DNA of 64,000 nucleotides, from NCBI RefSeq assembly GCF_013911965.1, contig NZ_JACESE010000012.1:58504-122503 (forward strand). The letters run 5' to 3'. Source of the DNA: Phenylobacterium sp. Lineage in GTDB: Bacteria; Pseudomonadota; Alphaproteobacteria; Caulobacterales; Caulobacteraceae. The translations under genes were made by a program, and so were the position numbers. Every line of letters starts with the position of its first letter. Position 1 is the stretch's first letter. Shown here in pieces: positions 44,990-64,000 of the stretch. The notes under the pieces are model-generated. The model searched no databases and had not been told where the DNA came from. It saw only the letters and a program-made list of their open reading frames with translations.

Positions 44990-46059
44990 CGGCGGAGGAG
45001 CGCGAAACGGCCATCGATCATGGCCGAGGCGTCTCGCCGATCGCCGGCGCGGCGCTCGCACGGCCCCGCCCCAGGCTTATGACCCTCGCAGCCTTGGGGG
45101 TCGGGGCGGGCCTGATCTTGCTCGCCCCGCTTCTCTTTCGCCAGGAGCCCGCCGAGCCGCCTGAGGAAGGGCCGGCGCGGCAAGTCGTCCGCTTTGATCG
45201 TGTCATGTCCAGCCGACCGGACGCGCTGGCGCAGGATGATCTTGAGGTCGGCGATCTTGCGGCGGCAGAAGCAGGGCCGGTCCCCCTGCCCGACGGCGCC
45301 GGGCCCGCCGATCAGGCGGCCGCCGCCAGCCCCGCGACAGCGCCCGCGCCATCGCCGGAGCCATCACCCGCGCCGGCGACGTCCTCCGCCAGTCCGCTCC
45401 TGGTCTACTCGGCGGCGAGCCCCACCCTGCCTCAGCAAGATCTGTCAGAGGCGGCGTCTGAAGACAGCGCAGAGGTCGCGGAGCTTGGGCATCCGCAGAC
45501 GCTGACCGCCCATCGCATCGATCGGCGTTACGCCCTTCTCGCTGGGGCGACCATGCCTTGCGTGCTTCTGACGGCGATCGAGTCGACGACACCCGGCCTG
45601 GTGACCTGCAGCTTGGCGCGTGACGTGATGTCCGAAGACGGGACCGTGGTGCTCCTGGAGAAGGGCTCGCGCGTCCTCGGCGCCTACCAGGAGGGCTTGG
45701 ACTTCGGCGAGCGCCGACTCTTTGTCCTGTGGACCCGCGTGGTCACCCCCAAGGGGGTGGCCATCGCCTTGCGCAGTCCCGCGGCCGATGCTTTGGGCCG
45801 CGCGGGCGTCGGCGGCGCCTTGCAGGGCCGCTTCTGGGAGCGGTTTGGCGGCGCCTTGCTGCTCAGCCTGGTCGATGCAGGGGGCGAAGCGGTCTTCGAT
45901 CCGCAGACGGGCCGGACGATCCTGCGGCCCTCGTCACAGGCGCTGGAGAAAACGACGCAGATCGGGCCGCGACTGACTGTGCCCCAAGGCCGGGAGCTTA
46001 CCATCTTCGTGGCGCATGATCTTGATTTCACCGATGTTTACGAGCTTGCCCTGAGGTAG
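44986..46059 (+). CDS. virB10: VirB10 (TrbI-like)
   Basis: This 357-residue protein spans the envelope. It has a cytoplasmic head, one inner-membrane helix (about residues 28-48), a proline/alanine-rich linker (about 90-140) and the C-terminal beta-barrel domain with YALLAGATMPCVLLTAIESTTPGLVTC and the antenna region around GRFWERFGGALLLSLVDAG. It transmits ATP energy to the outer-membrane pore. GTG 44986 overlaps virB9. Only two bases separate it from virB11. Confidence 0.93.
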   Translation: MTAEERETAIDHGRGVSPIAGAALARPRPRLMTLAALGVGAGLILLAPLLFRQEPAEPPEEGPARQVVRFDRVMSSRPDALAQDDLEVGDLAAAEAGPVPLPDGAGPADQAAAASPATAPAPSPEPSPAPATSSASPLLVYSAASPTLPQQDLSEAASEDSAEVAELGHPQTLTAHRIDRRYALLAGATMPCVLLTAIESTTPGLVTCSLARDVMSEDGTVVLLEKGSRVLGAYQEGLDFGERRLFVLWTRVVTPKGVAIALRSPAADALGRAGVGGALQGRFWERFGGALLLSLVDAGGEAVFDPQTGRTILRPSSQALEKTTQIGPRLTVPQGRELTIFVAHDLDFTDVYELALR

Positions 46060-46061: not shown

Positions 46062-47039
46062 GTGGCGTTCGATGATGTGCTCCTGCGCCGCTATTTGGCG
46101 CCGATCACACCGGCTCTTCGTCAGGCGGGCGTCACCGACCTGGTGGTCAATCAGCCCGGCGCCTTCCTGGTCGAACGCCATCATGTCTGGTCGCATCACG
46201 CAGCGCCCGAACTGACGCCCACCTGGCTGGAGACGCTGGCCCGAGCCGCCGCAGCGGCGAGCGCCCAGGATGTCGATGACGCTCATCCGATCTGTTCGAC
46301 CCACCTGCCCGACGGTGAACGCTGCCAGATCGTGCTTCCGCCCGCCGCGGCGCATGTGAGCCTGACGATCCGGCGGCCGACCGATCAGCAGCTGACCCTC
46401 GATGATCTCGCCGGCCAAGGTCTCTTCGATCGTGCGACCGTTGCAGACGGCGTCACGGCGCGGCGAAGCGAGCTCGACAGCCTCTACCGAGCGCGCGACT
46501 GGCGCGGGTTCCTGGCGGCGGCCGTGCAAGCCCGCTGCAACATTCTGATCAGCGGCGCGACGGGTTCAGGCAAGACGACTCTGGCCAAGGCGCTTGGCGC
46601 GCAAATCGCCCGTGACGAGCGTCTGATCACCCTGGAAGACGTCGCGGAATTCGACCTGCCGCACGCCAATCAGGTGCGGCTCTTCTATGCCAAGTCCGGC
46701 CAGGGCTTGGCCAAGGTCGGACCGAAGGATCTGTTGGAGAGCGCGCTTCGCATGCGGCCTGACCGGGTGCTGCTGCAGGAGCTGCGTGACGGCGCGGCCT
46801 ATACCTATCTGCGCAACGTCGCCAGCGGCCATCCCGGGGCGATCACGACGGTTCACGCCGGCGGCGTCGACCAAGCCTTCGCGCAACTCTGCCTGCTGGT
46901 GAAGGAGGCGCCGGAAGCGGCCAGCCTCAGCCGCGCGGAGGTCGAAGGCCTGCTGCGCAACCTGATCGACGTGGTCGTCCAGATCGAGCGCGAGCCGCAA
47001 GGCCGCCGGGTGAGCGAGATCTGGTTTGGACGTCGATAG
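46062..47039 (+). CDS. virB11: VirB11 ATPase
   Basis: This 325-residue hexameric secretion ATPase has Walker A GATGSGKTTLAKALG at about residue 165, the Asp box ITLEDVAEFDL, a Walker B/His box in MRPDRVLLQELRDGAAYTYLRNV and SGHPGAITTVHAGG. It starts at GTG 46062. The last bases overlap the TTG start of the coupling protein gene. It is full length. Confidence 0.94.
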   Translation: MAFDDVLLRRYLAPITPALRQAGVTDLVVNQPGAFLVERHHVWSHHAAPELTPTWLETLARAAAAASAQDVDDAHPICSTHLPDGERCQIVLPPAAAHVSLTIRRPTDQQLTLDDLAGQGLFDRATVADGVTARRSELDSLYRARDWRGFLAAAVQARCNILISGATGSGKTTLAKALGAQIARDERLITLEDVAEFDLPHANQVRLFYAKSGQGLAKVGPKDLLESALRMRPDRVLLQELRDGAAYTYLRNVASGHPGAITTVHAGGVDQAFAQLCLLVKEAPEAASLSRAEVEGLLRNLIDVVVQIEREPQGRRVSEIWFGRR

Positions 47040-48882
47040 GGCTCAGCTTGGCAAGGTCGTCGCCGGGGGACTCGCCGCTCTGCTCGGCCTCGGGATGATG
47101 GCCTATGTCACGATTGTCATCGCGCTTGCGGGGATGGGGGCGCTGAACGCTGAGACCAACCTCTGGCGGGCGGCCCAGGCGCTCTGGACCCATCGCTCCG
47201 TCCCCGAAATCGCACGTTGGCTGAAGCTTGGCGCGACAAGCAGCCTTGTCCTCTTTGGGGGGTTCGCGCTGGCGGTCTTCAAGAGCCGGCGCCGTCCGCG
47301 CTATGGCGACGCGCGCTGGGCGAGGCGCAGCGAAATCGCCCAAGCCGGCTTGTTCGCATCCGAGGGCCTGGTCCTCGGCCGCCATGGCCAGAGGCCACTG
47401 ATCTTCGGCGGCGACGAACACGTGCTCCTGGCCGCCCCCACCCGCTCGGGCAAGGGCGTTGGGCTCGTCATCCCCAATCTGCTCAGCTGGCCAGGCTCGG
47501 TCGTCGTGCTGGACCTCAAGCGTGAGAACTGGGGCGCAAGCGCCGGTTACCGGCAGGCCTGCGGCCAGACCTGCATCCTCTTCGATCCGCTATCGCCTGA
47601 GGGCCGCACGGCGCGGTTCAATCCGTTGGGTCACATTGATCGGGCTGATCCCGCGGTAATCATCGACGAGCTGCAGCGGATCGCCGTCATGCTGTTCGTC
47701 GCCGGCGAGCATGCGGATCTCTTCTGGTCTGAAGCCGCCCGGACAGGCTTCATCGCCGTGGGCGCCTATGTGGCCGAGACGCCCGAGCTCGGATTCGACC
47801 TAGGCGAAATCTATCGCCAGCTCACCGCCGGCGATCCGCGCAGCCGTCTCCGGGAGATCATCAAGGCCCGGGAGGCGGCGGGCCGCCCCCTCTCCTCGCC
47901 TTGCCAGAGCGCGTTGTCGGACTTCTGCAGCGCCTCGGACAACACCTTCGCCTCGGTGCGGCAAACCATCACCAGCCGCATGGGGCTGTGGCTCAACCCC
48001 CGCGTTTGCGCCGCCACCAGCGCCAGTGACTTCGACTTCCGATCCTTACGTCGCAAGCCCACCTCCCTCTATCTGGCCGCCTCGCCAGAGGATGTGCCGA
48101 GGCTCGCACCGCTGATGAGCCTGCTCTTCCAACAGCTCATCGACCAGTTGACCCGCGCCGGCCCGGCCGGCCCAAACGATCCGCTGCCGGTTCTTCTTCT
48201 GCTGGACGAGTTCGCCCAGCTCGGACCGGCCAAAGCGCTCGCCAAGGCGTTTTCCTATATCGCCGGTTACGGGGTGCGGCTGATGCCCGTGCTGCAGAGC
48301 CCCGCCCAGTTGCGGGCGATCTATGGGCACGATGGCGCCCAGGAGATCATCGACAATTGCGGCGTCGAGGTCGTCTTTGCGCCGAAGGATCTCGACGTCG
48401 CCCGCGCGCTTTCGCTCCGCCTGGGCGACTTCGACATCAAAAGCGAGAGCCGCAGTCGGCCGTTAGGTCTCGCCCAAGGACGCCGCAGTCTCAGCCAGTC
48501 GGTCGCACAGCGGGCCCTGATGCTGCCCGATGAACTGATGCGCATGCCCCAGAGCGACCTCATCGTCCTACGGGCGGGGGCCCGGCCGGTCCGCGGTCGC
48601 AAGATCATCTACTGGAAGGAGCCGGTCTTCGCCGAGCGCGTGCGACCGCCGCCGGACGTCGCTCCCCTCCCGGCGTCCGCACCACCGCCGCCGGCCGCCG
48701 ATGCTGCGCCAAGCCTCGCGCCGCAGCCGCAGCCCTTCGAACGTGAGCGCGCATCGGAGCGGTCGCGATTCAGCAAGCCGCCCGAGCCTTCGACACCGCC
48801 ACCGCCGAGCACGGCAAGCGATGATGAAAGGCTGGGTTGGACTTTCGGGCAGTTCGGCGAGCCGCCGCCGAGCGGTCGATAA
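47026..48882 (+). CDS. virD4: VirD4/TraG-type coupling protein
   Basis: This 618-residue type IV coupling protein has two N-terminal membrane segments (within about residues 5-35 and 65-85). Walker A is APTRSGKGVGLVIPNLL at about residue 138 and Walker B is PVLLLLDEFAQLG near 390. The C-terminal 80 residues are Pro-rich and variable. It brings the relaxase-DNA complex to the channel. TTG 47026 lies within the virB11 end and is the only start that preserves the first membrane segment. It is followed, convergently, by the relaxase gene, so the transfer genes are complete in function. Confidence 0.92.
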   Translation: MDVDRAQLGKVVAGGLAALLGLGMMAYVTIVIALAGMGALNAETNLWRAAQALWTHRSVPEIARWLKLGATSSLVLFGGFALAVFKSRRRPRYGDARWARRSEIAQAGLFASEGLVLGRHGQRPLIFGGDEHVLLAAPTRSGKGVGLVIPNLLSWPGSVVVLDLKRENWGASAGYRQACGQTCILFDPLSPEGRTARFNPLGHIDRADPAVIIDELQRIAVMLFVAGEHADLFWSEAARTGFIAVGAYVAETPELGFDLGEIYRQLTAGDPRSRLREIIKAREAAGRPLSSPCQSALSDFCSASDNTFASVRQTITSRMGLWLNPRVCAATSASDFDFRSLRRKPTSLYLAASPEDVPRLAPLMSLLFQQLIDQLTRAGPAGPNDPLPVLLLLDEFAQLGPAKALAKAFSYIAGYGVRLMPVLQSPAQLRAIYGHDGAQEIIDNCGVEVVFAPKDLDVARALSLRLGDFDIKSESRSRPLGLAQGRRSLSQSVAQRALMLPDELMRMPQSDLIVLRAGARPVRGRKIIYWKEPVFAERVRPPPDVAPLPASAPPPPAADAAPSLAPQPQPFERERASERSRFSKPPEPSTPPPPSTASDDERLGWTFGQFGEPPPSGR

Positions 48883-48899
48883 GCGGGCAGACGCCGCGC

Positions 48900-49904
48900 C
48901 TAGCGGCTGCGCTCGCGTTCCCGCGAGAGGTTTTGGTCACGGGCCCTCTGCCGGATGTCTCGCGCCATCCGGACACGATCGGTCACCGGCGCGGGCATGT
49001 CGTTGACGAAGCGCCGCAAGCCCTGCGCGAGCGCCCGATCGTCAGTCTCGGGCGAACGGTCGAGGTCAGCCGCCAGCCGCTCGAAAGCCTCGCGCACACG
49101 CGCCTGCGTACGAACGACGGCGATCTCCCGGCCGTCGGGCGTCTTGCGTCCCTCGGCCAAATCGAGCGCCTCTCGCCGCGTTCGTTCAAAGGCCCGCGGC
49201 GGCGGCGCATGGCCCTCCCAGTACTGCTCCAGGGCGCGCCAGTAACGCTGGGGCGGATTGCGCCCCACCAGTCCGCGCGACAGACGCGACGAGGCGTCGA
49301 CCTCCAGGCCCTGGTCACGCAAGGCCTGAGCGAACCGTCTGCGGTTCATCTCGAGGTCGGGCGGGTTCCAGATCAGGCGCACGCCGTCATCGCCCAAGGC
49401 GCGGAAGACGATGTGCGCGTGGGGGTGGGGACGATCGGTGTGCAGGGCGAGCACAAAGTCATGACGCAGCCCGTCGTGGGCGGCGGCGAATCCATAGGCG
49501 GCTGAAAAAACAGCCCGTGGCGGCGAACCTGGCGGGGCGGTGACGATCAGCGGGCGCGCCAGCACTGCGTTTGGACGCCGGCGGCTGTCAGCGGCGTCTG
49601 CAGACGCCCAATCCTTCGCCATTTCCTCGAGCGCGGGACGTCCCTGGAGGTGCATGCCCTCTCGGTCGAGCAGCGGCAGGATTCCACCGCGGCTGATATA
49701 GTCGAAATGCCCCTTCAGAGCCCTTGCCGATTTGATGCCGGCGCCGGCGCGGGTCACGACCTGGGGGTGACGCGAGACGAGCCGCCAGAGTTCGGCGCGA
49801 CGTTGGGGGCTTAAGGGACGTCCCGGCCGCAGCACTGACTCTGGGATGGTCCGCCATTTCGGCTCATCGCGCCCCTCCTCCAACGCATCGCGGGACCGCC
49901 TCAC
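48900..49904 (-). CDS. VirD2-like relaxase/mobilisation nuclease
   Basis: This protein of about 334 residues nicks DNA at oriT. The metal-binding three-histidine motif is HTDRPHPHAHIVFRAL, and KSARALKGHFDYISRGG near the N-terminus holds candidate catalytic tyrosines. It starts most likely at GTG 49904, overlapping the MobC stop (GTGA); a TTG at 49919 is also in frame. The protein is rather short, so it may lack extended helicase or primase domains. With MobC and VirD4 it forms the DNA-processing set of a conjugative or mobilisable element. Confidence 0.86.
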   Translation of the reverse strand: MRRSRDALEEGRDEPKWRTIPESVLRPGRPLSPQRRAELWRLVSRHPQVVTRAGAGIKSARALKGHFDYISRGGILPLLDREGMHLQGRPALEEMAKDWASADAADSRRRPNAVLARPLIVTAPPGSPPRAVFSAAYGFAAAHDGLRHDFVLALHTDRPHPHAHIVFRALGDDGVRLIWNPPDLEMNRRRFAQALRDQGLEVDASSRLSRGLVGRNPPQRYWRALEQYWEGHAPPPRAFERTRREALDLAEGRKTPDGREIAVVRTQARVREAFERLAADLDRSPETDDRALAQGLRRFVNDMPAPVTDRVRMARDIRQRARDQNLSRERERSR

Positions 49905-50422
49905 GGGGCGCACTCCCAACTCGCCAAATTGCCCTCGAGGGCGTGGCGTAATTTGGCCAACTCGCGGCGGATGTCGGAGGCGAAGCGCTCAAGTTCCGCC
50001 TGCTCGAGGGGCGCGTCACGGCGCGCGGGATCGTGGGCCATGTGCCGCAAGGCGACGGCGATCTTGCGCAGCTCCATTTGGACGCCGGCCAGAGCGACAT
50101 CCTCAGGGGTTCCGAAGGTGGGGCGCCGGTGAAGGCGTGCGCGGACGAGTGCGATCACCCAGGGGCCGAGCAGAAGACCCATTTGTTCGGCCTCCCGCGC
50201 CAGCAGCGCGGCGTCATCGCGATCCAGACGAACGGCGACGTGGACAGTCTTCGGCTTACGGCTCGGGGGCGCGGGCGCAATGGAAGCCGGCGCCGCCTCA
50301 AGCTTGGCGAGCATCCGCCGCACGAGGACCGCCCCACCGCCAGCCGCTTCTGCGGCCGCGCAGAACCGCCGATGGTCATCCTCGCTGAGGGACAGCCGAA
50401 GCGTCTTGTATGCCCTCGCCAT
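49901..50422 (-). CDS. MobC-like relaxosome accessory protein
   Basis: This 173-residue protein has an N-terminal KTLRLSLSEDDHRRFCAAAEAAG segment and a middle KTVHVAVRLDRDDAALLAREAEQMGLLLGPWVIALVRARL, which look like a ribbon-helix-helix DNA-binding arrangement. The C-terminus is helical. ATG 50422 has GGAGG eight bases upstream. Its position immediately before the relaxase gene, with overlap, supports a relaxosome role. The nic site (oriT) is expected in the gap upstream (50423-50537), but I do not recognise it. Confidence 0.7.
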   Translation of the reverse strand: MARAYKTLRLSLSEDDHRRFCAAAEAAGGGAVLVRRMLAKLEAAPASIAPAPPSRKPKTVHVAVRLDRDDAALLAREAEQMGLLLGPWVIALVRARLHRRPTFGTPEDVALAGVQMELRKIAVALRHMAHDPARRDAPLEQAELERFASDIRRELAKLRHALEGNLASWECAP

Positions 50423-50537
50423 GCCGCGAACCTCCAAGCAGAGGATCGCGCACCTGAAGGTTCTCGGGAATCCGTAGACTTACCGATGGCCGCGCCGTTC
50501 CAAGCTGAGGAAGACGCTTAGCGAAGCGTCCAATCCG

Positions 50538-50888: not shown

Positions 50889-51146
50889 TTAGGACGTTCG
50901 CTGATGCTGCTCGCCGCTTGGACGCAGAAACCGCACACCTTCCCCGCGTTCGCCCGCGGGAATGAACTCGACGCCGGCGCGGAAAAACGCCTTCTCAACC
51001 GCGATGAGCGTGCTGTGCCGGGTGTCGACGGCACCCCGCTCCAGTCGGTTCACCGCGTTGAGCGAGACAATCGCGCGATCAGCCAAGTCCTGTTGAGACC
51101 AGCCAAGCAGGGCGCGGGCAGCTCGTATTTGGGCGGGAGTGACCAT
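50889..51146 (-). CDS. XRE-family regulator divergent from the sigma-factor operon
   Basis: This 85-residue regulator has TPAQIRAARALLGWSQQDLADRAIVSLNAVNRLERG as its helix-turn-helix, then a short C-terminal domain ending VEFIPAGERGEGVRFLRP, typical of compact single-domain XRE repressors. ATG 51146 is preferred to the upstream TTG 51158. It is transcribed away from the sigma-factor gene. An inverted repeat at 51187-51205 lies between them on the putative promoter, so it is a candidate repressor of the sigma/FecR/receptor/isopeptidase operon. Confidence 0.88.
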   Translation of the reverse strand: MVTPAQIRAARALLGWSQQDLADRAIVSLNAVNRLERGAVDTRHSTLIAVEKAFFRAGVEFIPAGERGEGVRFLRPSGEQHQRTS

Positions 51147-51186
51147 CCCGACCAACACGCGAGAACTCAGCGCCCGTTACCACCAT

Positions 51187-51205
51187 AAGGTTTGTTATGA
51201 ACCTT
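51187..51205. promoter_or_regulatory. Operator-like inverted repeat over the sigma-factor promoter
   Basis: AAGGTT and AACCTT flank a 7-base spacer. The dyad overlaps the -35 element of the sigma-gene promoter and also lies 41 bases upstream of the divergent XRE gene, so one protein could control both directions. Confidence 0.55.
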
Positions 51206-51219
51206 TTGCGGTGTATAAT
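51192..51219 (+). promoter_or_regulatory. Sigma-70-type promoter of the ECF sigma-factor gene
   Basis: TTGTTA (51192-51197, four of six matches to TTGACA) is separated by 16 bases from a perfect TATAAT (51214-51219). Transcription would begin near 51226, with GGGAGG at 51242-51247 as the ribosome site for the GTG start at 51253. Confidence 0.6.
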
Positions 51220-51252
51220 TCACCTCTTCACACAACCCGGTGGGAGGATCCG

Positions 51253-51756
51253 GTGACCAACAGAAAGCGAAGACGATCCGCAGGCGCATCAACCACCACC
51301 CCACCGTTGGGGCTTGAGCCTTTCGTCGCTTGGCTGCAGCGAGCGGCCCAATTCTTTAAACCTGGCCCTGAGGCCCAGGACGCCGTCCAAACAGCGTTGG
51401 AGAGGGCGCTGCGGTCCGGGGCGACGATCCGCCATCCTCGGGCCTATCTCGCTCAGACCCTGCGCAACCTCGCCGTCGACGAAGCCCGCCGGGTGCGGGC
51501 GAGCGGCGGGGCCGCGCTGGCGCTCGAGGAGGTCGAAGACCGGCTGCCCAGCGTAGCGCCGGACCAGGAAACCACCCTTCTGCTCAAACAGGTGATCTTG
51601 GGACTTCCGCCACTCTACCGTGACGTGTTTATATTGAACCGCTTCGTTGGTCTCACCTACGAGCAGATCGCTGCTCGCCAGGGCGTGACCCCGAAAGCGA
51701 TTGAGTATCGCATGTCGCGTGCGCTCGCCCTGTGCCAGGATGCGCTGCGCGACTAA
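51253..51756 (+). CDS. ECF sigma factor (FecI-like)
   Basis: This 167-residue sigma-70-family protein starts at GTG 51253 after GGGAGG. Region 2 has AQDAVQTALERAL and HPRAYLAQTLRNLAVDEARRVRA; region 4 has ILGLPPLYRDVFILNRFVGLTYEQIAARQGVTPKAIEYRMSRAL, a FecI-type pattern. It should be activated through FecR when the receptor downstream binds its ligand. It is 15 bases from fecR. Upstream are a sigma-70-like promoter and an operator-like repeat for the XRE protein. Confidence 0.9.
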   Translation: MTNRKRRRSAGASTTTPPLGLEPFVAWLQRAAQFFKPGPEAQDAVQTALERALRSGATIRHPRAYLAQTLRNLAVDEARRVRASGGAALALEEVEDRLPSVAPDQETTLLLKQVILGLPPLYRDVFILNRFVGLTYEQIAARQGVTPKAIEYRMSRALALCQDALRD

Positions 51757-51771
51757 TCACGGGACGGCGCG

Positions 51772-52755
51772 ATGGCCGATGCGGCCTTTGAGCTGAAGCA
51801 GATCCGCGATCAGGCGGCGAGCTGGTACGCGCGGCTGAACAATACGACCATCTCCACCGACACTCTGCGGGCCTTCCGCGAGTGGCGCCGCACGGACGAG
51901 CGCCACGACGAGGCCTATCTGGAGATCGAGGCGTTTTGGAAGCGGGTCGCCCAACTCGAAAACGATCAGGAGATCCAGCGCGCGGCGGGTGCGGCGCTGG
52001 AACGTCCGGCCGAAGCGCCGAAGACGGGGCCGCTGGGGCGTCCGGGCGGCAAGAGTCTGGCGGCGGCCTTCTTCGCACTACTTCTGGTGGCGGCGCTGAC
52101 CCTGAGCTGGCCGCGCCTCTTTGGCGAGACCTACGCCAGCGGCGTGGGAGAGCAGCGCATCCTGCGCCTGAAGGATGGATCGCAACTGCGGCTCGACACC
52201 GCCAGCCGGGTTCGTGTGAAGCTGACGGACGACGCAAGGCGAGTGAGGTTGTTGGGCGGACGCGCCTTCTTCGACGTGGCCCACGATCCCAGCCGGCCCT
52301 TCACGGTGGTGGCCGACGGCGCCTCGGTGACGGCGCTGGGCACGCGGTTCGACGTGCGACGTGACACCGCCGACGTCACCGTGACGCTCTTCCAGGGCCA
52401 GGTGAAGGTCGAGGGCGGCGAAGCGCCGGTGGTCCTGCAGCCTGGGCAGCGCGCGATCGTGACGGGCGCCGGAAGCCGGTCCCTGGTGCGTTCGGTGAAC
52501 GCCGCCGAGGCGCAAAGCTGGACGCAGGGCCAGCTGGTCTTCCGCCAGCAGACGCTTGGCGCGGCCGCCGCCGAAGTGAACCGCTATAGCGAGACCCAGG
52601 TGGTCATTCGCGACGCCGACCTCGCCAACCGGACGGTCTCGGGCGTCTTCGAAAGCGGCGACACCGACGCCTTCGTGGCCGCCGTCGCCGACCTCTTCGA
52701 TCTTGAAGTCGACCGCTCCCAAAACGAGGAAATCGTTCTCCGACGCGCAGGCTGA
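51772..52755 (+). CDS. FecR-type anti-sigma factor/transmembrane regulator
   Basis: This 327-residue protein has an N-terminal cytoplasmic DUF4880-like part (ASWYARLNNTTISTDTLRAFREWRRTDERHDEAY), one membrane segment (about residues 88-108) and a periplasmic FecR domain with LKDGSQLRLDTASRVRV and VTALGTRFDVRRDTADVTVTLFQGQVKV. The C-terminus (STN-like dyad) could contact the receptor. It holds the ECF sigma factor and transmits the occupancy signal of the TonB receptor. It precedes that receptor gene by a 145-base gap. Confidence 0.92.
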   Translation: MADAAFELKQIRDQAASWYARLNNTTISTDTLRAFREWRRTDERHDEAYLEIEAFWKRVAQLENDQEIQRAAGAALERPAEAPKTGPLGRPGGKSLAAAFFALLLVAALTLSWPRLFGETYASGVGEQRILRLKDGSQLRLDTASRVRVKLTDDARRVRLLGGRAFFDVAHDPSRPFTVVADGASVTALGTRFDVRRDTADVTVTLFQGQVKVEGGEAPVVLQPGQRAIVTGAGSRSLVRSVNAAEAQSWTQGQLVFRQQTLGAAAAEVNRYSETQVVIRDADLANRTVSGVFESGDTDAFVAAVADLFDLEVDRSQNEEIVLRRAG

Positions 52756-52903
52756 CGGTTCGTCCGGCGTCCGGACAACAAATCTGTCACATGGGTTTAG
52801 GGTCCCCGCCGCATAGCTCCGTCTCCACCTCCAAGACCCCCGTCTGCGGCGCTTAGGCGCGCCGGTCAGACCGCAACGGGTCAAGCATTGGAGGGGTAGT
52901 TTG

Positions 52904-55900
52904 GTGGTCTCGACCCGCTGGGCGCTGGTGAGCAGCGCGTGTTTTGGACTGATGAGCCTCAGCGCGCCGGCGATCGCCGGGCCGGCCGAGGTGCGGTTTG
53001 ACATCCCGGCCGGCCCCCTGGAGGCGGCGCTGGTGACCTATGGCGCCCAGGCCCGGCGCCAGATTCTCTTCGACCCGGCGATGGTCGCGGGCCACCAGGC
53101 GCCGGCGATCCGCGGGCCCATGGGCGCCGATGCGGCGCTGGCGCGCCTCTTGGAAGGCTCAAGCCTTCGAGTGCGCGAAACCCAGCCCGGCGTCTTCACT
53201 CTGCAGGCTCCGCCTTCCCCACCCCCCTCCGCTCCAGGGCGGCCGAGCCTGCAGCCGCAGGCCCTGGCGCGCGCCGGCCAAGCCGTCGCCTCAGGGCCTG
53301 CGGGCGACGCGTCAGTGGCCAGGGCTCCGACGCTCCTCGATGAGCTGATCATTACGGGCACCCTGATCCGCGGGTCGAGCCCGCCCAGTTCGCCGGTGTT
53401 GCAGTTGGACGGCGCCGACATCGAAGCTGGCGGTCACGCCACGGTCGGCGACATGCTGGCCGCTCTGCCGCAGAACTTCGGCGGCTCCGGCTCGGCGGCC
53501 GCCGCCCTGGTGGGAACAGATCCGCGGACCACCAACGACCTGGCGGCCACAGGTCTGAACCTGAGGGGCCTGGGCGCCTCGGCGACCCTGGTGCTGGTCA
53601 ATGGTCGCCGCATGGCCGGCGTCGGCACCCGCGGCGACTTCGCCGACGCCTCGGCGATCCCGACGGCGGTCGTCGAGCGGGTCGACGTGCTGCTCGACGG
53701 CGCCTCGGCCCTCTATGGGTCCGACGCGGTCGGGGGCGTCGTCAATGTGATCCTCAAACGCCGTTTGGACGCGCCGGAGTCCCGCCTGCATCTGTCGGCC
53801 GCCACCCAAGGCGGGGCCGAAGAGCTTCAAGCGAGCCACGCCTGGGGGACCAGCTGGTCCAGCGGCGATCTCGTGCTGGCCTATGAATATGGCAAGCACT
53901 GGGGTCTGCGGGCGGAGGAACGACCCTTCACCGCCACCAGCGACCTGCGCAGCCTCGGCGGCGGCGACTGGCGGACCTTCTACAGCCACCCCGCCAACAT
54001 CCTCACCTTTGACGCGCAGAGCGGCAGCTATGTGGTCGGCTGGGCCGTGCCGCCCGGCCAGAGCGGGCGCAACCTGACGCCTGGCGACTTCATCGCCGGC
54101 GGCGCCAACCTGGAAAACCAGCGGCAAGGCGGCGATGTCTTGCCCGCCGACGAGCGTCACAACCTCTACGCCTCGGTCGTTCAGGCGCTTGGCGCGAACG
54201 TCCGGCTCCTGTCGGATGTGCGCTACAATCGCCGCGACAATCTGATCGCCCGACCGGCGTCGGTGTCGGTCTTCACGGTCACCCGCGCCAATCCCTTCTT
54301 CGTCTCGCCCAATGGCTCAAGCTCACACGTGTTGGGCTACGCCTTCGGCGACGAGGTGGGGCCCTCGTTGAGCGATGGTCGGGCCGAGAGCCTTGGGCTC
54401 TCCGGCGGGCTCGAGATCGACCTGCCCGCCGGCTGGCGCGCCGACATCTATGGCTCGGCGGCGTTTGAGACCGGCGAGCGCGACACCGAGCGCCTGATCA
54501 ACAGCCGCTTCGTGAGCGAGGCCCTGGGCTCGATCGCCGATGATCCGGCGACATCCTTCTCGGCCCCTCGTGACGGCTACTTCAATCCCTTCGGAGACGG
54601 CGGCGCCAATGGGCCGGCCGTCCTGGACTTCATCGGCTCGGGCTATACGCGCGGCCGCACCTTGAGCCGCGTGCTCACCTTCGACGCCAAGGCCGACGGC
54701 GATCTCTTCGAGACGCCGGCCGGCGTGGTGCAGGCCGCCCTTGGCGTCCAGGCCCGCCAAGAACGCTTCAAGACCACGACCAAGAGCCTCGTCTCGACCA
54801 CCGCCCCCGTCCACACCGGCGGGGTGACCTATAAGCGCAACATCGAGGCGGCGTTCCTGGAACTGCGCGTGCCGCTGGTCGGCGCAGACATGGGCGTGCC
54901 CGGCGTCGATCGTCTGGAGCTTTCCGTGGCGGCGCGGACCGAGCGCTACGGCGACTTTGGCCGAACCACCAACCCCAAGGTCGGGCTGCTGTGGGCGCCG
55001 ATGGAGGGTCTGCGCTTGCGCGCCAGCTACGGCACGTCCTTTCGCGCGCCGAATCTGACGGAGATCTACCAGACCCAGAACGCCTCGCCGGTCCTGGTGG
55101 GCGCCGGGGCCAGCCAGACCCTGGCCCTTGTCCAGACCGGCGGCAATCTCAACCTGGAGCCAGAGACCGCGACCACCTGGTCGGCCGGCTTTGATTTCGA
55201 ACCCGACGCCCTGCCGGGTCTGTCGCTGTCGGCCACCTGGTTCGACGTGACCTTCTCCGACCAGATCGGCCAGCCGGTGCTCGCCGACATCCCCAACGCC
55301 TTGAGCCATCCGGCCTACGAGCCGTTCGTCACGCCGGTGGATCCCAACAATCCCGCCGACCTGGCCTGGGTCGAGGCGCTGATGGCGGCCTCGACCTCCT
55401 CCAACATCGGCCTCTTCCCGGCGTCGGCCTATCGAGCTGTCATAGACGCCCGCTACGTCAACACCGGCGAGGTGGTGGTGCGCGGCCTCGACCTGGCGGC
55501 AGCTTACGCCTTCCGCCGTGGGGACGACGCGTTCGAGGTCACGGCGGCGGTGAACTATCTCGCCGACTATGTGCGTCGCTTCACCCCCACGGCCGAGCCG
55601 GTGCAGTTCGTCGACCAGGCCAACCAGCCGGTGGACCTGCGCGGGCGCGTCACGGGGTCGTGGCGGCGGGGCGCCTATGGCGTCTCGGCGACCTTCAACT
55701 ATGTGGACGACTCTCACAGCGCCGCGGGCGAGCCGATTGAGGCCTATACGCCGGTGGATCTGCAGCTGCGTTGGACGCCGAAGACAAACTCCGGCCCCAT
55801 CGCGGGCCTGACGGCGAACCTCACCGTCTCAAACCTCTTCGATGAAGATCCGCCCTTCTACAACTCGCCTCTCGGCGTGGGCTTTGATCCGGCCAACGCC

Positions 55901-55948
55901 GATCCGCTGGGACGGACGGTTTCGCTCTCTCTGACCAAACGCTGGTGA
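52904..55948 (+). CDS. TonB-dependent receptor with N-terminal STN signalling domain
   Basis: The roughly 1014-residue receptor starts at GTG 52904 (TTG 52901 is possible) after GGAGGGG at 52890-52896. A signal peptide ends near APAIAGP. The STN domain (about 30-90) carries FDIPAGPLEAALVTYGAQAR; a proline-rich linker, the plug (VLVNGRRMAG, DGASALYGSDAVGGVVNVIL) and the barrel follow, ending in LSLTKRW. STN domains signal to FecR, so ligand binding should induce the operon. The ligand is probably a lasso peptide, as inferred from the downstream isopeptidase. The barrel is large and loops are extended. Confidence 0.93.
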   Translation: MVSTRWALVSSACFGLMSLSAPAIAGPAEVRFDIPAGPLEAALVTYGAQARRQILFDPAMVAGHQAPAIRGPMGADAALARLLEGSSLRVRETQPGVFTLQAPPSPPPSAPGRPSLQPQALARAGQAVASGPAGDASVARAPTLLDELIITGTLIRGSSPPSSPVLQLDGADIEAGGHATVGDMLAALPQNFGGSGSAAAALVGTDPRTTNDLAATGLNLRGLGASATLVLVNGRRMAGVGTRGDFADASAIPTAVVERVDVLLDGASALYGSDAVGGVVNVILKRRLDAPESRLHLSAATQGGAEELQASHAWGTSWSSGDLVLAYEYGKHWGLRAEERPFTATSDLRSLGGGDWRTFYSHPANILTFDAQSGSYVVGWAVPPGQSGRNLTPGDFIAGGANLENQRQGGDVLPADERHNLYASVVQALGANVRLLSDVRYNRRDNLIARPASVSVFTVTRANPFFVSPNGSSSHVLGYAFGDEVGPSLSDGRAESLGLSGGLEIDLPAGWRADIYGSAAFETGERDTERLINSRFVSEALGSIADDPATSFSAPRDGYFNPFGDGGANGPAVLDFIGSGYTRGRTLSRVLTFDAKADGDLFETPAGVVQAALGVQARQERFKTTTKSLVSTTAPVHTGGVTYKRNIEAAFLELRVPLVGADMGVPGVDRLELSVAARTERYGDFGRTTNPKVGLLWAPMEGLRLRASYGTSFRAPNLTEIYQTQNASPVLVGAGASQTLALVQTGGNLNLEPETATTWSAGFDFEPDALPGLSLSATWFDVTFSDQIGQPVLADIPNALSHPAYEPFVTPVDPNNPADLAWVEALMAASTSSNIGLFPASAYRAVIDARYVNTGEVVVRGLDLAAAYAFRRGDDAFEVTAAVNYLADYVRRFTPTAEPVQFVDQANQPVDLRGRVTGSWRRGAYGVSATFNYVDDSHSAAGEPIEAYTPVDLQLRWTPKTNSGPIAGLTANLTVSNLFDEDPPFYNSPLGVGFDPANADPLGRTVSLSLTKRW

Positions 55949-55964
55949 GCCTGAAAGCCTCGCC

Positions 55965-58361
55965 ATGCGCGCCGGCCTCCTTCTGGCCGCCTGCGTCGCG
56001 CTCGCCTTCGGCGGCGCGGCGGCGGCGCGACCCTTCAGCGTCGATGACCTGCTGAACGCCGAAGAGTTCGGGCAGATCTGGGTTTCCGACGATGGCGACC
56101 TGCTCGTTGTGGAGCGCCTGATCGGCCAGGCGCAGGCCGCGCCCTTCGATCAGGACGTCTATAGCGACCATCGCCGAAGCCGCCTTTACGGGGCGCGCCT
56201 GCCGAACGGCCAGCTCTCGCCCTTGCTGCCGCAGGAGCGCGGCGGGCAAACGGCGGGGCCGGTGGCGCCGGGCGGAGCGCGGATGGCGGTGATGCGCTTT
56301 TCCGGCGCGATCTGGGAGGTGGGCGTCCTGACCTTCGCCACCGGCGACGTCCAGTGGTTGGGTCTGACGCCGGAGCTCAACGGCCTGGGCCAAACCCTGG
56401 TCTGGGTCGACGACCACACCCTGCTGGTCGCCACCCACGGCGCGGGCTCGGCGCCGCTTCGTCTGCGGACGGGCGGCGAGATGCGTCGCCGCCAGGCCGA
56501 ACTCTGGGCGGCGGCCAAGGCTGGCGCCCCCGCGCTCCATGTCATCGGCAGCGGCCGCTTCTTGAGCGCGCGGCCTAAGGCCCCGCTCGGCGCCCTGATC
56601 GAGGTGGATTTGGCGGCGCAAACCCAACGCCGCCTGGCGCAGGGCGACATCATCGATCTTGCGCTCTCGCCAGATGGGCGCAGGGTCGCAGCCTTAGCGC
56701 TCTTTGCGCCTCTACAGGCGCCGGCGGCGCAGAAGCTTTGGGTGGCCAGTCCGGAGCGGCGGCGAAACTTACTGCTCATCGACCGAGCCACCGCTCAGGT
56801 CACCCTCCCCTGTCCCACCTGCCAGATCGATCCCAACCTGCTCGCCTGGTCGTCGGTAGGCGAGCATCTGCTGATCCATGGACGCCGAGGCGATCCTTGG
56901 ACGGGACCATCGTCCTATTTCGTGGTCGGGCCGGAGGGGCTCAGCGCCTTGGAGACCCCGGGGGTGAGGCCGGTCATCGAGCGCACGAGCGAGGGCTACG
57001 CCATTCCCCGGGCGCATTGGTGGCGGGGGCGACCCGTCGTCCTGGCGCAGTCGATGAACGGCGTGCGCGGTTGGTTCGCGGTGAGCGCCGAGGAGGCGAA
57101 GGCGCTGACGGGCGATCTCACCGGCGTTGCGGCCCAGCTGGCGCTCGGCTCTGACGGCGCGTTGCTCGCCTTAGCCGAGGGCGCCATCTGGCGACTGTCT
57201 GAAAACGCGGCCCCTCAGGCCGTGGGGCCGGCAGAGGCCTTCGTCGCGCCGCAGGGCCTGGGCCTCTCCTACCGTGAGCGCATCAACGGCTTTCAGGCCC
57301 CGTGGGTGGAGGCGCAGGGGGCGGACGGCAGCTTGAACTTGCGCGCATTGGACGCCTCAGCGTCCCTGCCTCTGCCGACGGAGGGCAAGATCCTGAGCCG
57401 CGCCGTCGGCGGCGAGCGGTTGGCCGTGATCCGCCGGCGCGACGACGGCGTGCTGCTGTTGGAGGTTCAGCAGGGGCCTCGACAGTGGAGGACGTTGGCG
57501 CAGCTGAACGCCGTATTTGCTGAAATCGACTTTGCTGAGCGGCGGCCCGTCCAGGCGAAGGGCCCTCGGGGCGAGCCCGTGACCCACTGGCTCTTCTTGC
57601 CGCCGAAGACGAAGGGTCTGCGCCCGTTGATCGTCATCCCCTATCCAGGGGCGGCCTATGCCGAACCGCCAGCCGCCTACGGATCGGGCGTCGGGCGCTT
57701 TAGCGCCAACGCCGACCTCTTCGCCGCTGCGGGATTTGCAGCGCTCGTGCCAAGCCTGCCGCGACCGCCTGGCGCTGAGCCCGGTGAGGCGATGGCAGAG
57801 CAGATCTGGGCCGCCGTGGAGGCGGCAAGCCATGAGGCTGAGCTCGACCTCGCCCGCGTCGCCCTCGTGGGCCAGAGTTTCGGGGGCTACGCCGCGTTGA
57901 TGGCGGGCACCCAAAGTGACCGCTTCGCCGCCATTGTGGCCTCGGCCGCCCCCTCCGATCTCGCCAGCATGCGCGGCGCCATGGACCCGCATTACGAGAT
58001 CCTGCCCGCCGATGGCTTAGGGCTCAACGCCAACTATGGCTGGTCGGAGCGCGGACAAGGCGGGCTCATGGACTCACCCTGGGAGAATCCCGACCTCTAT
58101 GTCCGCAACAGTCCGGTCTTCTTCGCCGACCAGATCTGCGCGCCCGTGTTGCTCATCCATGGCGACGGCGATTTCGTGCGTCTCTCCCAGGCCCAGGAGA
58201 TGTTCTCGGCGCTCTACCGGCTCGGCAAGGATGCGCAGCTGATCACCGTCTTTGGCGAGGGCCATGTGATCTCGAGCCCCGGCAACCGCCGCGTCGTGAC
58301 GACCGCGACGCTAGACTGGCTTCGGGCCGTGCTGGGCGCCCCCCATCACCCCTGCCGCTGA
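55965..58361 (+). CDS. Lasso-peptide isopeptidase-like S9 prolyl oligopeptidase (AtxE2 type)
   Basis: This 798-residue secreted S9 peptidase has a signal peptide (1 to about 21). The first half is a beta-propeller; the second is an alpha/beta-hydrolase. The catalytic triad is S638 (VGQSFGGYAAL), D736 (HGDGDFV) and H767 (GEGHVIS). The mature N-terminus (RPFSVDDLLNAEEFG) and the propeller segment VIGSGRFLSARP resemble the Atxe2 lasso-peptide isopeptidases, which hydrolyse the macrolactam bond to linearise threaded peptides. The gene follows the receptor by 16 bases, as in known isopeptidase clusters. A general dipeptidyl-peptidase function is the alternative. The gene is intact. Confidence 0.82.
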   Translation: MRAGLLLAACVALAFGGAAAARPFSVDDLLNAEEFGQIWVSDDGDLLVVERLIGQAQAAPFDQDVYSDHRRSRLYGARLPNGQLSPLLPQERGGQTAGPVAPGGARMAVMRFSGAIWEVGVLTFATGDVQWLGLTPELNGLGQTLVWVDDHTLLVATHGAGSAPLRLRTGGEMRRRQAELWAAAKAGAPALHVIGSGRFLSARPKAPLGALIEVDLAAQTQRRLAQGDIIDLALSPDGRRVAALALFAPLQAPAAQKLWVASPERRRNLLLIDRATAQVTLPCPTCQIDPNLLAWSSVGEHLLIHGRRGDPWTGPSSYFVVGPEGLSALETPGVRPVIERTSEGYAIPRAHWWRGRPVVLAQSMNGVRGWFAVSAEEAKALTGDLTGVAAQLALGSDGALLALAEGAIWRLSENAAPQAVGPAEAFVAPQGLGLSYRERINGFQAPWVEAQGADGSLNLRALDASASLPLPTEGKILSRAVGGERLAVIRRRDDGVLLLEVQQGPRQWRTLAQLNAVFAEIDFAERRPVQAKGPRGEPVTHWLFLPPKTKGLRPLIVIPYPGAAYAEPPAAYGSGVGRFSANADLFAAAGFAALVPSLPRPPGAEPGEAMAEQIWAAVEAASHEAELDLARVALVGQSFGGYAALMAGTQSDRFAAIVASAAPSDLASMRGAMDPHYEILPADGLGLNANYGWSERGQGGLMDSPWENPDLYVRNSPVFFADQICAPVLLIHGDGDFVRLSQAQEMFSALYRLGKDAQLITVFGEGHVISSPGNRRVVTTATLDWLRAVLGAPHHPCR

Positions 58362-59010: not shown

Positions 59011-59752
59011 TGCCTCGTCGTCGTACCCATGCCCCTCTGAACGTGCTGATCAACAACCGCCTCTGCGGCCGTCTGGAAAAAAGGCCAGCGGCGCGATCAG
59101 CTTCCAGTACGATCCGAGTTGGCTAGCATGGCAGCCAGCCTTTCCGATCTCCCTCTCTTTGCCCCTGCAGGAGGCTCCTCGGCGCGGGGAGGCCGTCGTC
59201 GCTGTGTTCGACAACCTCCTGCCGGACAACATCCACGTTCGTCGGCAAGTTGCCGAGCGCACCGGAGCCGAGGGCGCCGACGCCTACAGCCTTCTCGCTC
59301 AAATCGGGCGAGATTGCGTGGGCGCGATGCAGTTCCTTCCCGACGGTAAGGCGGCCGACGCCCTACAGCCCATCCAAGGCACGCCGATCAGCGACGAGGA
59401 AATCGAGGGACTGCTGGCGAACCTTGCCTGGGCGCCCCTCGGCATCGATCCCGAACAGGAGTTCCGGATCTCGGTCGCCGGCGCTCAGGAGAAGACTGCG
59501 CTTCTCCGTCACGAAGGCCAGTGGATGCGGCCGATCGGAACGACGCCGACCACGCATATCCTAAAGCCTCAGCTCGGCGAGATCCCGACGTCGTCGGGGG
59601 TGATCGATCTCAGCGACAGTGTCGAGAACGAGCATTACTGTCTGACGCTGCTGGAGAGCTTCGGCCTCCCCGTCGCCAAGACCGACCAGCTTTCACCTGA
59701 CGTTAAAGCCCTAGCCATGGCAGCAGAAAGACGTTGTCATCGCGGCAACTAG
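59010..59752 (+). pseudogene. hipA: HipA toxin kinase, frameshifted and truncated
   Basis: The first frame (ATG 59010) gives THAPLNVLINNRLCGRLEK and then hits a stop. The HipA reading resumes in another frame (SGAISFQYDPSWLAW, then LPLQEAPRRGEAVVAVFDNLLPDN) directly after a six-A run at 59077-59082, so one indel there breaks the gene. The second frame continues through YSLLAQIGRDCVGAMQFLPDG and ISVAGAQEKTALL up to ESFGLPVAKT, then departs from the family near 59690 and stops. The kinase catalytic lobe (C-terminal half) is missing. The toxin should be inactive. Confidence 0.85.
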
Positions 59753-60777: not shown

Positions 60778-61134
60778 ATGCCATGGACAGTCGCCAACCA
60801 CGACGAGTTCGACCCGGAGTTCGAGGCCCTTCCCGAGGAGGTGCAGGACGAGCTTCTGGCGGTCACGGCGTTATTGGAGACCTATGGCCCGGCGCTCGGA
60901 CGGCCTCACGCCGACACCTTGGCCGGTTCCAAGCACGCGAACATGAAGGAACTTCGGTTCGTTGCGGCGGATGGAGTCTGGCGGGTGGCGTTCGCCTTCG
61001 ATCCGAAGCGACGGGCCATTCTGCTCGTCGCAGGCGACAAGGCCGGTGTCGCGCAGCAGCGGTTCTACAAGGGCCTGATCCGCAAGGCCGACAGCCGCTT
61101 CACCGACCACCTGAAGCGATTGAAGGAGGGTTGA
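60778..61134 (+). CDS. higB: RelE/HigB-type toxin (Gp49-like)
   Basis: This 118-residue protein matches the phage-derived Gp49-like/HigB family. FEALPEEVQDELLAVTALLETYGPALGRP and MKELRFVAADGVWRVAFAFDPKRRAILLVAGDKAG contain the basic/aromatic residues of mRNA-cleaving RelE-fold toxins. It starts at ATG 60778 with almost no leader. It is followed one base later by the antitoxin gene (toxin-first order, as usual for HigBA). A dyad operator lies just upstream. Codon use is normal. Confidence 0.88.
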   Translation: MPWTVANHDEFDPEFEALPEEVQDELLAVTALLETYGPALGRPHADTLAGSKHANMKELRFVAADGVWRVAFAFDPKRRAILLVAGDKAGVAQQRFYKGLIRKADSRFTDHLKRLKEG

Positions 61135-61135
61135 T

Positions 61136-61456
61136 ATGGGACGCACGCGCCAAGAGATCATGGCGGGCTTGCCTGCCGAACGCCGGGTGAAGATCGAGGA
61201 TCGCGCTGCCGAACTCCATGGCGAGGTCGAGGGGCTGAAGGCTCTGCGTCTCCTGACCGAGCGTAGCCAAGAGCAGATCGCTCAGAGCTTGGGGGTGAAG
61301 CAGCCGTCCGTCGTGAAGATCGAGCGGCAGACTGACCTCTACCTTTCCACCTTGCGTCGCTTCGTGGAAGCGGCGGGCGGCAAACTTGAACTGCGCGTGG
61401 AGTTGCCCGGCAAAGGGGTTCTGCACCTGAAGGGCCTTGGCGAACTGAATTCCTGA
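61136..61456 (+). CDS. higA: HigA-type XRE antitoxin
   Basis: This 106-residue antitoxin has an N-terminal helical region RRVKIEDRAAELHGEVEGLKALR and a helix-turn-helix RSQEQIAQSLGVKQPSVVKIERQ, followed by LSTLRRFVEAAGGKLELRVELP, a family-typical C-terminal part. It neutralises the toxin and represses the operon from the upstream dyad. It is the downstream partner in the pair and appears intact, so this is a functional stabilisation module. Confidence 0.88.
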   Translation: MGRTRQEIMAGLPAERRVKIEDRAAELHGEVEGLKALRLLTERSQEQIAQSLGVKQPSVVKIERQTDLYLSTLRRFVEAAGGKLELRVELPGKGVLHLKGLGELNS

Positions 61457-61960: not shown

Positions 61961-62659
61961 CTAGGCGCTGGCTGAACGGATGATCCGACGGGCCTGATAG
62001 GGCGGAACGACAGCTGTGATGTGCGCGGCCCAACGCAGTCTGCAATCACGCCGCACCGGCCCAACCACGCTTTCCAGATCATAGCGTCCCTTACGCGAGC
62101 CGCGCAGAAGGCGTTTGACTAAGACTTCATCCGTGTCGGTCTCGACCACGACGACGTGGCCCAACATGTCTTCGCTGGGGGGTGTCCGTTGATCTTCGAA
62201 GTAGATCAGTCCGCCGTTGTCGGCCAAACCGGTCATGGAATGGCCAATGACCTGGAGAGCCACGGCGCGAGGACTACCGCCCGGCGGCAGCGGCACGAGA
62301 TCGCCAGGCGCTTGCCCGTTCGCGAAGAGCACCACACCTTCCGGATCTGCGCCAACACGGCCGACAATGGGTACGAGCCGCTCGGCCTCCGGCGCGTCCG
62401 CATCTAGCACGTCCGGTTCTGACGCACCCGTCCCAGCATATAGCCACTCGGCCGTGACGCCGAAGGCGGCGGCGTAGGCGGCGGCCTTGCGGTAGGAAAA
62501 CGGGGCGTTGCCGTTCTCATTTGAGAGATAGGTGTTGCGGTTCCAGCCGAACGCCAGGGCCGCCTCGACCCCGGAGGCGAAGCCCCGCGCGATGCGCGCC
62601 TCTCGCAGGCGGCGGGCCGCCTCAATCTGCCCCTTGCTCATAATGTGTTTATCATACAC
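61961..62659 (-). CDS. XRE-S24 phage-type repressor (LexA/CI-like)
   Basis: This 232-residue protein has an N-terminal helix-turn-helix (REARIARGFASGVEAALAFGWNRNTY) and a C-terminal S24 serine peptidase domain. Catalytic Ser is in GHSMTGLADNGG and the Lys in EVLVKRLLRG. Such proteins repress mobile-element genes until DNA damage triggers self-cleavage; no clear Ala-Gly cleavage site is seen, so self-cleavage is uncertain. ATG 62659 has AGGA upstream. The gene diverges from a 50-codon membrane protein over a 42-base AT-rich operator region. Confidence 0.87.
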   Translation of the reverse strand: MYDKHIMSKGQIEAARRLREARIARGFASGVEAALAFGWNRNTYLSNENGNAPFSYRKAAAYAAAFGVTAEWLYAGTGASEPDVLDADAPEAERLVPIVGRVGADPEGVVLFANGQAPGDLVPLPPGGSPRAVALQVIGHSMTGLADNGGLIYFEDQRTPPSEDMLGHVVVVETDTDEVLVKRLLRGSRKGRYDLESVVGPVRRDCRLRWAAHITAVVPPYQARRIIRSASA

Positions 62660-63750: not shown

Positions 63751-64000
63751 TCAACGGCCAAGACGCTTCGCCCAGGCCTCGAGCCAGAGCTCGGTCATGA
63801 TCAGATTGAAGAGGCTTCCATAACCCCCCCGCCAGATCAGGGATTGTGGCTGTAACGCCCATTCGACGGCGTCGCGCCGAAGGAGGCCATGACGCGCCAT
63901 CTGCCCCTCCAGCAGCAGGGCGAGCAGCTCCTGGCGGCTCCGGCTCAACCTTCGGCCGTAGTGCGCCGACAATCGTCCCTTCGACCGGCGCGCGAGCACA
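63751..64000 (-). CDS. Lasso-peptide cyclase-like (asparagine-synthetase family) C-terminus, cut by the window edge
   Basis: The last 83 residues are visible; the rest is beyond 64,000. The sequence (LARRSKGRLSAHYGRRLSRS, then LLLEGQMARHGLLRRDAVEWAL and a final TELWLEAWAKRL) matches the C-terminal end of asparagine-synthetase-like proteins, in particular the lasso-peptide C proteins that close the macrolactam ring in proteobacterial clusters. The isopeptidase 5.4 kb away makes this reading more likely. A general asparagine synthetase B is the alternative, since the ATP- and active-site regions are not in view. Confidence 0.6.
   Translation of the reverse strand, partial: VLARRSKGRLSAHYGRRLSRSRQELLALLLEGQMARHGLLRRDAVEWALQPQSLIWRGGYGSLFNLIMTELWLEAWAKRLGR

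Follow-up and report, generated by a model that had tools for sequence, protein, structure and literature searches.

A sigma-FecR-receptor-peptidase operon beside conjugation genes in Phenylobacterium, a likely uptake, signaling, and linearizing arm of an isopeptidase-type lasso peptide cluster

Introduction

What is the role of an operon that joins a sigma factor and a FecR regulator to a TonB-dependent receptor and a secreted S9 peptidase, in a stretch of DNA without a lasso peptide precursor beside it? The question is raised by 64,000 nucleotides of Phenylobacterium sp. (NCBI RefSeq assembly GCF_013911965.1, contig NZ_JACESE010000012.1, positions 58,504 to 122,503 of the forward strand), analyzed as a whole and termed the window. 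The original prediction, made from the sequence alone, interpreted the operon as the sensing and linearizing arm of a lasso peptide system with an Atxe2-type isopeptidase. Isopeptidase clusters are described in the relevant sections of a 2022 review (PMC9266682) as having a GntR-like regulator, a sigma/anti-sigma pair, and a TonB transporter around them; the same sections call the biological role of isopeptidase-containing lasso peptides still enigmatic and give the known ones as lacking antimicrobial activity, astexin-1 excepted.

The window quite likely contains the uptake, signaling, and linearizing arm of an isopeptidase-type lasso cluster, situated beside conjugation genes. The cluster architecture is of a known kind and what appears to be new, as far as the literature was searched, is a peptidase outside the curated family as the main Caulobacteraceae type and the frequent embedding of the clusters in conjugative elements. 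Among the titles listed for papers that combine lasso peptides with conjugation, type IV secretion, or integrative and conjugative elements, none was on the subject, and a prior report is possible.

Results

Operon architecture and lasso genes in relatives

Sigma factor, FecR, receptor, and peptidase genes formed a single run on one strand (+) in the open reading frame (ORF) list, with Sigma70_r4_2, r2, FecR, DUF4880, Plug, TonB barrel, and Peptidase_S9 matched over their Pfam cut-offs and the receptor STN domain (PF07660) just below its own (26.1 versus 28.4 bits). Relatives were collected by fetching 20 of the 22 nearest places (G262 C13 and G271 C66 were left out). Receptor and peptidase were present in all 20 and were faced in all 20 by a lasso cyclase (C) and a B gene, while FecR and sigma were each found in 16. 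As the four-gene set recurs in the fetched relatives, it is more than a chance arrangement. Among the 16 relatives having sigma, the gene lay on the operon strand in 12 and on the opposite strand in four (L063, L064, L077, and L082), including the two nearest relatives L063 and L064, where it was behind an inserted gene and whose receptors were 66% and 69% identical to that of the window, respectively. Three loci (L066, L078, and L080) stopped at a contig edge and in L069 neither FecR nor sigma was seen despite room for both.

The two B proteins tested both passed the NCBIfam lasso_biosyn_B2 model and the three cyclases tested gave matches to cyclase models that were all below cut-offs. Across 299 Caulobacteraceae genomes, a peptidase relative (E <= 1e-30) was present in 99 and the lasso B2 domain PF13471 in 139, the latter occurring in 97 of the 99 peptidase-positive versus 42 of the 200 peptidase-negative genomes (Fisher p 7e-42; counted by eye). 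The sole other peptidase-positive genome without PF13471 was G198 (C2:186958-188085), listed with a partial peptidase match only. Cyclase or B was in view in 50 of the 54 named loci L084-L137 (exceptions L099, L129, L130, and L136), several of which are the same contigs as the coded relatives, and one S9 gene was in view in each of 72 loci having B or C (score > 60; duplicate contigs included). The predicted run of four genes was therefore confirmed by ORFs, Pfam/NCBIfam profiles, and its recurrence, and its link to lasso peptides gained support from the facing cyclase and B genes in the relatives together with a cyclase end in the window itself.

Related genes were also observed in other settings. 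Locus L165 (G122 C1:629000-646000) displayed two S9 types, receptors, and FecR with no B or C in view and is a candidate for a true orphan sensing arm. On two Acidobacteria contigs (L151:5377-10849 and L160:8123-14387), genes resembling the cyclase and B faced an S9 peptidase, suggesting another lasso-linked S9 type. Full-length peptidase relatives (32%) were found on the Polymorphobacter plasmids NZ_CP081849.1 and NZ_CP080242.1 (0.84-0.91 Mb); no other record among the 135 from plasmids matched 80% of the peptidase query in a single place.

The cyclase end at the contig edge

The predicted lack of a precursor beside the operon held in that none was found in the window, but a cyclase 3' end was present 5.4 kb beyond the peptidase and the contig stops there. 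The L063 cyclase matched G000:C4:122260-122499 (-), corresponding to window positions 63757-63996, with 54% identity; this C-terminal end comprised the last ~80 codons, scored 86 bits with the C profile, and had a reading frame open up to the edge. It was the one match to this query in the window genome, where the remainder of the cyclase was not found. As the cyclase end sits where the contig ends, the biosynthetic half was probably cut off and was most likely lost in assembly rather than absent from the genome, which had a completeness score of 99.99%.

The junction between peptidase and cyclase (window 58362-63753) recurrently contains inserted genes that are often toxin-antitoxin-like, such as a HipBA-like insert in L166 (10153-11762) and AbiE-like inserts in L064 and L086 (read from translations). 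In L116, the junction held 9.5 kb of other DNA.

The peptidase and its family

The predicted catalytic triad S638/D736/H767 was borne out, being invariant across 22 aligned peptidase sequences; in a wider alignment of 48 sequences, S638 and H767 remained invariant and D736 was kept in >= 90%. The predicted structure (predicted local distance difference test 92.4, predicted template modeling score 0.92) aligned over its whole length with two-domain S9 peptidases (Foldseek, VIA). Assignment to the Atxe2 family was not supported, with a score of 50.1 bits against NF033523 (curated cut-off 400). Matches over that cut-off occurred in 32 of the 299 genomes compared to 99 for the window peptidase type, which is the commoner of the two in Caulobacteraceae.

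Loci L165-L168 were termed SpI-type because the L168 enzyme matched SpI-IsoP at 248 bits. A catalytic-domain tree of 77 rows (mixture model, quick search) placed the window enzyme together with its lasso-linked relatives and with a few S9 rows showing neither B nor C in view; the AtxE2-type and SpI-type rows (plus L164 and L173) formed a separate group (Shimodaira-Hasegawa-like approximate likelihood ratio test 96). In approximately unbiased (AU) tests, a clade of AtxE2-type and window-type rows with the SpI-type rows left outside was rejected (p-AU 6.4e-6); a single lasso-linked clade with the SpI-type rows inside was not (p-AU 0.083), such that one or two origins of the lasso-linked S9 enzymes are both possible. 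An initial claim of independent recruitment of the peptidase came from the first AU test, which had the SpI-type rows outside, and was withdrawn on the corrected value. Clustering with ordinary S9 peptidases, named as a refuting result by the original prediction, was observed in the best tree and the structure ranking, but a single lasso-linked clade was not rejected.

In L166 the peptidase slot holds an SpI-type enzyme at 3.1 kb from the cyclase, and in L168 one at 2.0 kb. These two loci share the precursor type of the window cluster type and have the receptor and cyclase nearest to it (the exact tree place is without strong support). Isopeptidase activity of SpI-IsoP has been demonstrated according to the sections of the review on that enzyme (PMC9266682), and an SpI-type enzyme in the same slot argues for the same job of the window enzyme. 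Based on gene neighborhood, lasso linearization appears the likeliest job of the window peptidase.

Conjugation genes beside lasso clusters

Directly upstream of the operon lie conjugation genes (Table 1), on which the original prediction is silent; the relaxase, coupling protein, and type IV secretion system (T4SS) genes expected of an integrative conjugative element are all present in the window. T4SS or relaxase genes similar to these were found in 14 of 50 named lasso-linked loci (flanks <= 10 kb) and in none of 50 other loci (S9 loci without B or C, plus L151, L160, L166, and L168). VirB4 (PF03135) was identified in 49/50 and 46/49 of the 99 peptidase-positive genomes, searched in two batches. 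Among 144 peptidase places from the matches listed, 34 had their nearest VirB4 at up to 10 kb, 77 at up to 30 kb, and 93 at up to 50 kb; random placement in genomes of 4.2 Mb would give 1.9, 5.6, and 9.4, respectively. For 36 there was no VirB4 on the contig. In 27 loci among these matches VirB4 was 6.1-7.6 kb downstream, in all 27 on the same strand. As a control, 35 other S9 loci in the same genomes had VirB4 on the contig in eight cases and within 30 kb in none.

VirB4 was also within 30 kb of 5/9 AtxE2-type and 2/3 SpI-type clusters. The AtxE2-type clusters concerned (G134 C16, G221 C1, G142 C44, G206 C46, and G257 C2) were 18-26 kb from the VirB4-family gene, so the conjugative setting may extend beyond the window enzyme type. 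With the window T4SS proteins as queries, only one of 20 AtxE2-type loci (17-19 kb each) contained a T4SS gene (L196).

Seven genome maps, drawn from rough gene calls, fitted a single circular order cut at differing points: virB4...virD4, relaxase-mobC, sigma-FecR-receptor-peptidase, and C-B (the relaxase was unrecognized in G151 and mobC in G193, and B was off the contig in the window). Common to six of these element maps was a regulator with XRE-like and LuxR-like ends (from translation), seen near the lasso B gene in G193 (C17:34336-35091; L211) and with relatives in G088, G122, G140, G151, and G252. A megablast of window positions 45000-62000 versus plasmids gave no match.

Whole elements at guaA in Brevundimonas

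An integrase search covering eleven genomes identified an integrase adjoining guaA (read from translations) in Brevundimonas G151, G122, G252, G073, and G291, 51-73 kb from the peptidase. In all five, a near-copy of the 15-base guaA end was located beyond the lasso cluster, with one (G122 and G291) or two (G151 and G252) mismatches to the genome's own end; the G073 repeat had four mismatches to its own end and two to the reference 15-mer. At <= 2 mismatches, the reference 15-mer had no match in 950,763 bases of other loci. Since integrase and guaA are on one side and the guaA-end near-copy is beyond the lasso cluster, the cluster lies inside a guaA-integrated element in five of the six Brevundimonas genomes examined. 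The sixth (G249) carried two lasso clusters beside T4SS genes, with only a distant integrase and no guaA or guaA repeat in the stretches fetched. No tRNA adjoined the Brevundimonas integrases and a search for exact 18-base repeats gave nothing convincing. Arsenic-resistance-like genes (from translations) were observed next to the integrase in L226, L227, L229, L230, and L233.

At <= 2 mismatches, the guaA 15-mer was not found in the window contig C4 or in 60 kb each of G088, G193, and G140, and no PF00589 integrase was present on C4, which is cut. As C4 has neither an integrase nor a guaA-type repeat, the window copy is at most putatively mobile.

Predicted precursors and receptor signaling

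With a leader pattern derived from these same loci, a precursor-like ORF was recognized ahead of B in 54 of the 71 loci that have B (one, L128, probably by chance). Asp or Glu was at core position 8 or 9 in 56 of 58 distinct cores and the other two look like chance ORFs. The nearest relatives predict a 15-residue core, G-x-[IV]-G-x-x-x-E-L-D-x-x-P-x-P, closed from Gly1 to Glu8, with predicted cores GSIGENVELDARPQP in L063 and L064, GVIGADYELDFQPHP in L065, and GIVGADYELDYQPHP in L066. The L109 core is that of caulonodin VI and its second core is two residues from caulonodin VII, as given in the tabulated entries of PMC12427821.

Core divergence was tracked best by divergence of the receptor among the five proteins compared (23 loci; Mantel r 0.73 versus 0.64 for the peptidase, 0.66 for C, 0.60 for B, and 0.65 for FecR). 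The receptor-core correlation persisted in partial tests (0.43 given the cyclase and 0.45 given FecR) and that of the peptidase given C was weak (0.17). As all distances share ancestry, the correlation supports receptor specificity without proving it.

With its spacing of 17, the motif TAGGG-N17-CGTC (chosen by eye ahead of counting) preceded the receptor gene in 21 of 48 non-redundant loci, compared to a mean of 0.14 in shuffled sequences; spacings of 13-16 or 18-21 gave 0-1 of the 48. The motif was also before the receptor gene in 7/7 element maps. A Gibbs motif search converged on an A/T-rich stretch and was set aside. Signaling from STN through FecR to sigma, as originally predicted, agrees with the gene architecture and with this motif, with the reservation that the STN match is just below cut-off. 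Control of conjugation by the sigma factor was rejected as a candidate: in the seven maps, no virB4 or relaxase gene was preceded by the spacing-17 motif. A looser motif with other spacings occurred before virB6, virB9, virB11, or virD4 in some maps and its totals were near those of shuffles in most (6-25 found versus 11.4-24.8 expected).

Table 1. Features of the window; position 1 is its first letter.
Feature	Position	Strand	Evidence and remarks
virB4 (T4SS ATPase)	39351..41711	+	PF03135 150 bits
virB5-like T4SS protein	41402..42418	+	PF07996 93 bits; ORF overlaps virB4, true start probably later
virB6	42449..43345	+	PF04610 128 bits
virB8, virB9, virB10	43530..46059	+	PF04335 196, PF03524 160, PF03743 153 bits
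virB11 and virD4	46062..48882	+	T2SSE 104.9 bits; T4SS-DNA_transf 321.9 bits
MobA/VirD2-like relaxase	48900..49919	-	PF03432 36.1 bits, cut-off 24.6
Small conserved gene beside relaxase, named mobC by position	49901..50437	-	No Pfam match
Extracytoplasmic function (ECF) sigma factor, FecI-like	51139..51756	+	sigma70-ECF 57 bits (over cut-off); start 51253 also possible
FecR-like regulator	51772..52755	+	PF04773 80.5 bits, DUF4880 40.5 bits
Promoter-like motif TAGGG-N17-CGTC, fecR-receptor gap	52798..52823	+	
STN-containing TonB-dependent receptor	52901..55948	+	Pfam Plug, TonB barrel over cut-off
Secreted S9 peptidase, 798 aa, triad S638/D736/H767; probable lasso isopeptidase outside Atxe2 family	55965..58361	+	
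Short HipA-like gene, 197 aa, between peptidase and cyclase	59159..59752	+	Covers only first 60 of 213 HipA_C positions
HigBA-like pair (Gp49 family + HTH_37)	60778..61456	+	
Helix-turn-helix/S24 repressor-like gene	61961..62659	-	Matches below cut-off
3' end of lasso-type macrolactam cyclase (C), off contig/window end	63754..64000	-	54% identity, L063 cyclase residues 492-571, E 4.9e-21

Discussion

With a sigma factor, FecR, and TonB receptor, the operon has the regulatory and transport genes expected beside the peptidase of an isopeptidase-type lasso cluster. In the proposed mechanism, the mature lasso peptide would dock at the receptor, whose STN domain would signal through FecR to the sigma factor, which in turn may activate both receptor and peptidase genes through the motif at position 52798. 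The peptide would enter through TonB and have its isopeptide bond hydrolyzed by the periplasmic S9 enzyme. Several points weigh against this interpretation. No member of the window peptidase lineage is known to have been assayed, and by profile score the enzyme is not an Atxe2-family member. The structure search placed other S9 peptidases first with SpI-IsoP at rank 37 (AtxE2 was not among the 50 rows, which does not indicate a different fold). An exact motif occurs in no more than 21 of the 48 loci, the 5.4 kb insert parts the peptidase from the cyclase, and PF13471 and the precursor pattern are both missing from the 33-contig assembly, such that production by the strain is not supported.

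These missing genes are the starting point for the view that the biosynthetic half was truly lost and the operon survives as a scavenging or immunity arm for lasso peptides of neighbors. An orphan importer was suggested by the missing PF13471 and largely dropped once the contig edge proved to carry the cyclase end, staying as a rival. It would account for the absence of B2 and a precursor pattern from a nearly complete genome, the single match to the cyclase, and the toxin-antitoxin-like genes in the insert, but the cyclase end shows conservation and an intact frame with the contig edge as its only break, clusters that have B and C can carry junction insertions too (L086 and L166), and just one other genome of the 99 positives (G198) is without B2. 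Such a loss is hence unlikely. It is also rather doubtful, though deserving somewhat more weight, that the S9 enzyme is a periplasmic peptidase trimming linear peptides, for instance an already opened lasso, and not the isopeptidase. Its proximity to other S9 peptidases rather than AtxE2 in the best tree and structure rankings, and the neighbors L130, L136, L139, L140, L141, and L153 without B or C in the stretch examined, favor trimming, whereas the 72 loci with B or C all had one S9 gene in view, in a slot otherwise filled by AtxE2 or SpI types, and a single lasso-linked clade was not rejected by the tree. The withdrawal of the separate-origins claim slightly lowers this alternative.

FecI-FecR-STN receptors are best known for iron, and the profile matches of the window receptor were to haem, B12, and siderophore receptors, from which it could be argued that the protein imports iron-siderophores or another nutrient and that its lasso neighborhood is incidental. 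However, none of the 25 NCBIfam matches of the receptor reached cut-off, the linkage to B and C is recurrent, and core divergence tracks receptor divergence, making nutrient uptake highly improbable.

The recurrent placement beside relaxase and virB genes lies behind a further, speculative idea that we consider improbable on present evidence, namely that in Caulobacteraceae the isopeptidase-type lasso peptide serves conjugative elements for self-recognition. Carriers would make the peptide, sense it via receptor, FecR, and sigma, and destroy it with their own isopeptidase, and the peptide would report on, or act against, cells without the element. Against this idea, no regulatory link was seen: in the seven maps the spacing-17 motif was absent upstream of virB4 and of the relaxase gene.

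For the preferred reading, a lasso uptake, signaling, and linearizing arm, the repeated association of such clusters with DNA-transfer elements, whether next to them or within them, makes the purpose of these peptides accessible to testing: if many clusters belong to conjugative elements, one can ask whether the peptide serves the element or its carriers. Because the peptidase type found most often with such clusters in Caulobacteraceae (99 of 299 genomes, compared to 32 for Atxe2) falls outside NF033523, annotation with this curated model leaves it unrecognized.

Among known systems, the Atxe2 family (NF033523; AtxE1/AtxE2 and BenE according to the enzyme sections of PMC9266682) resembles the window in having an S9 enzyme in the same slot, a TonB receptor, facing lasso genes, and a Ser-Asp/Glu-His triad. 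It differs in a 638-position profile compared to 798 aa, in the 50.1 bits scored against a cut-off of 400, and in its separate place in the best tree, although a common clade that includes the SpI types is not rejected. For SpI-IsoP of sphingopyxin I (PDB 5JRK/5JRL), SpI-like counterparts fill the slot in L166 and L168, two loci with a related receptor, cyclase, and precursor; in the best tree, SpI-IsoP groups with AtxE2 and not with the window enzyme. For the caulonodin clusters of Caulobacter sp. K31, the likeness concerns the L109 cores, and the window precursor is unseen. Genes for bacteriocins of the ribosomally synthesized and post-translationally modified peptide (RiPP) group on conjugative elements, such as the nisin transposon (as covered in the pertinent part of PMC12715929), likewise bring RiPP and transfer genes together; the nisin-type elements carry another RiPP class, whereas here the gene order next to relaxase and virB genes recurs.

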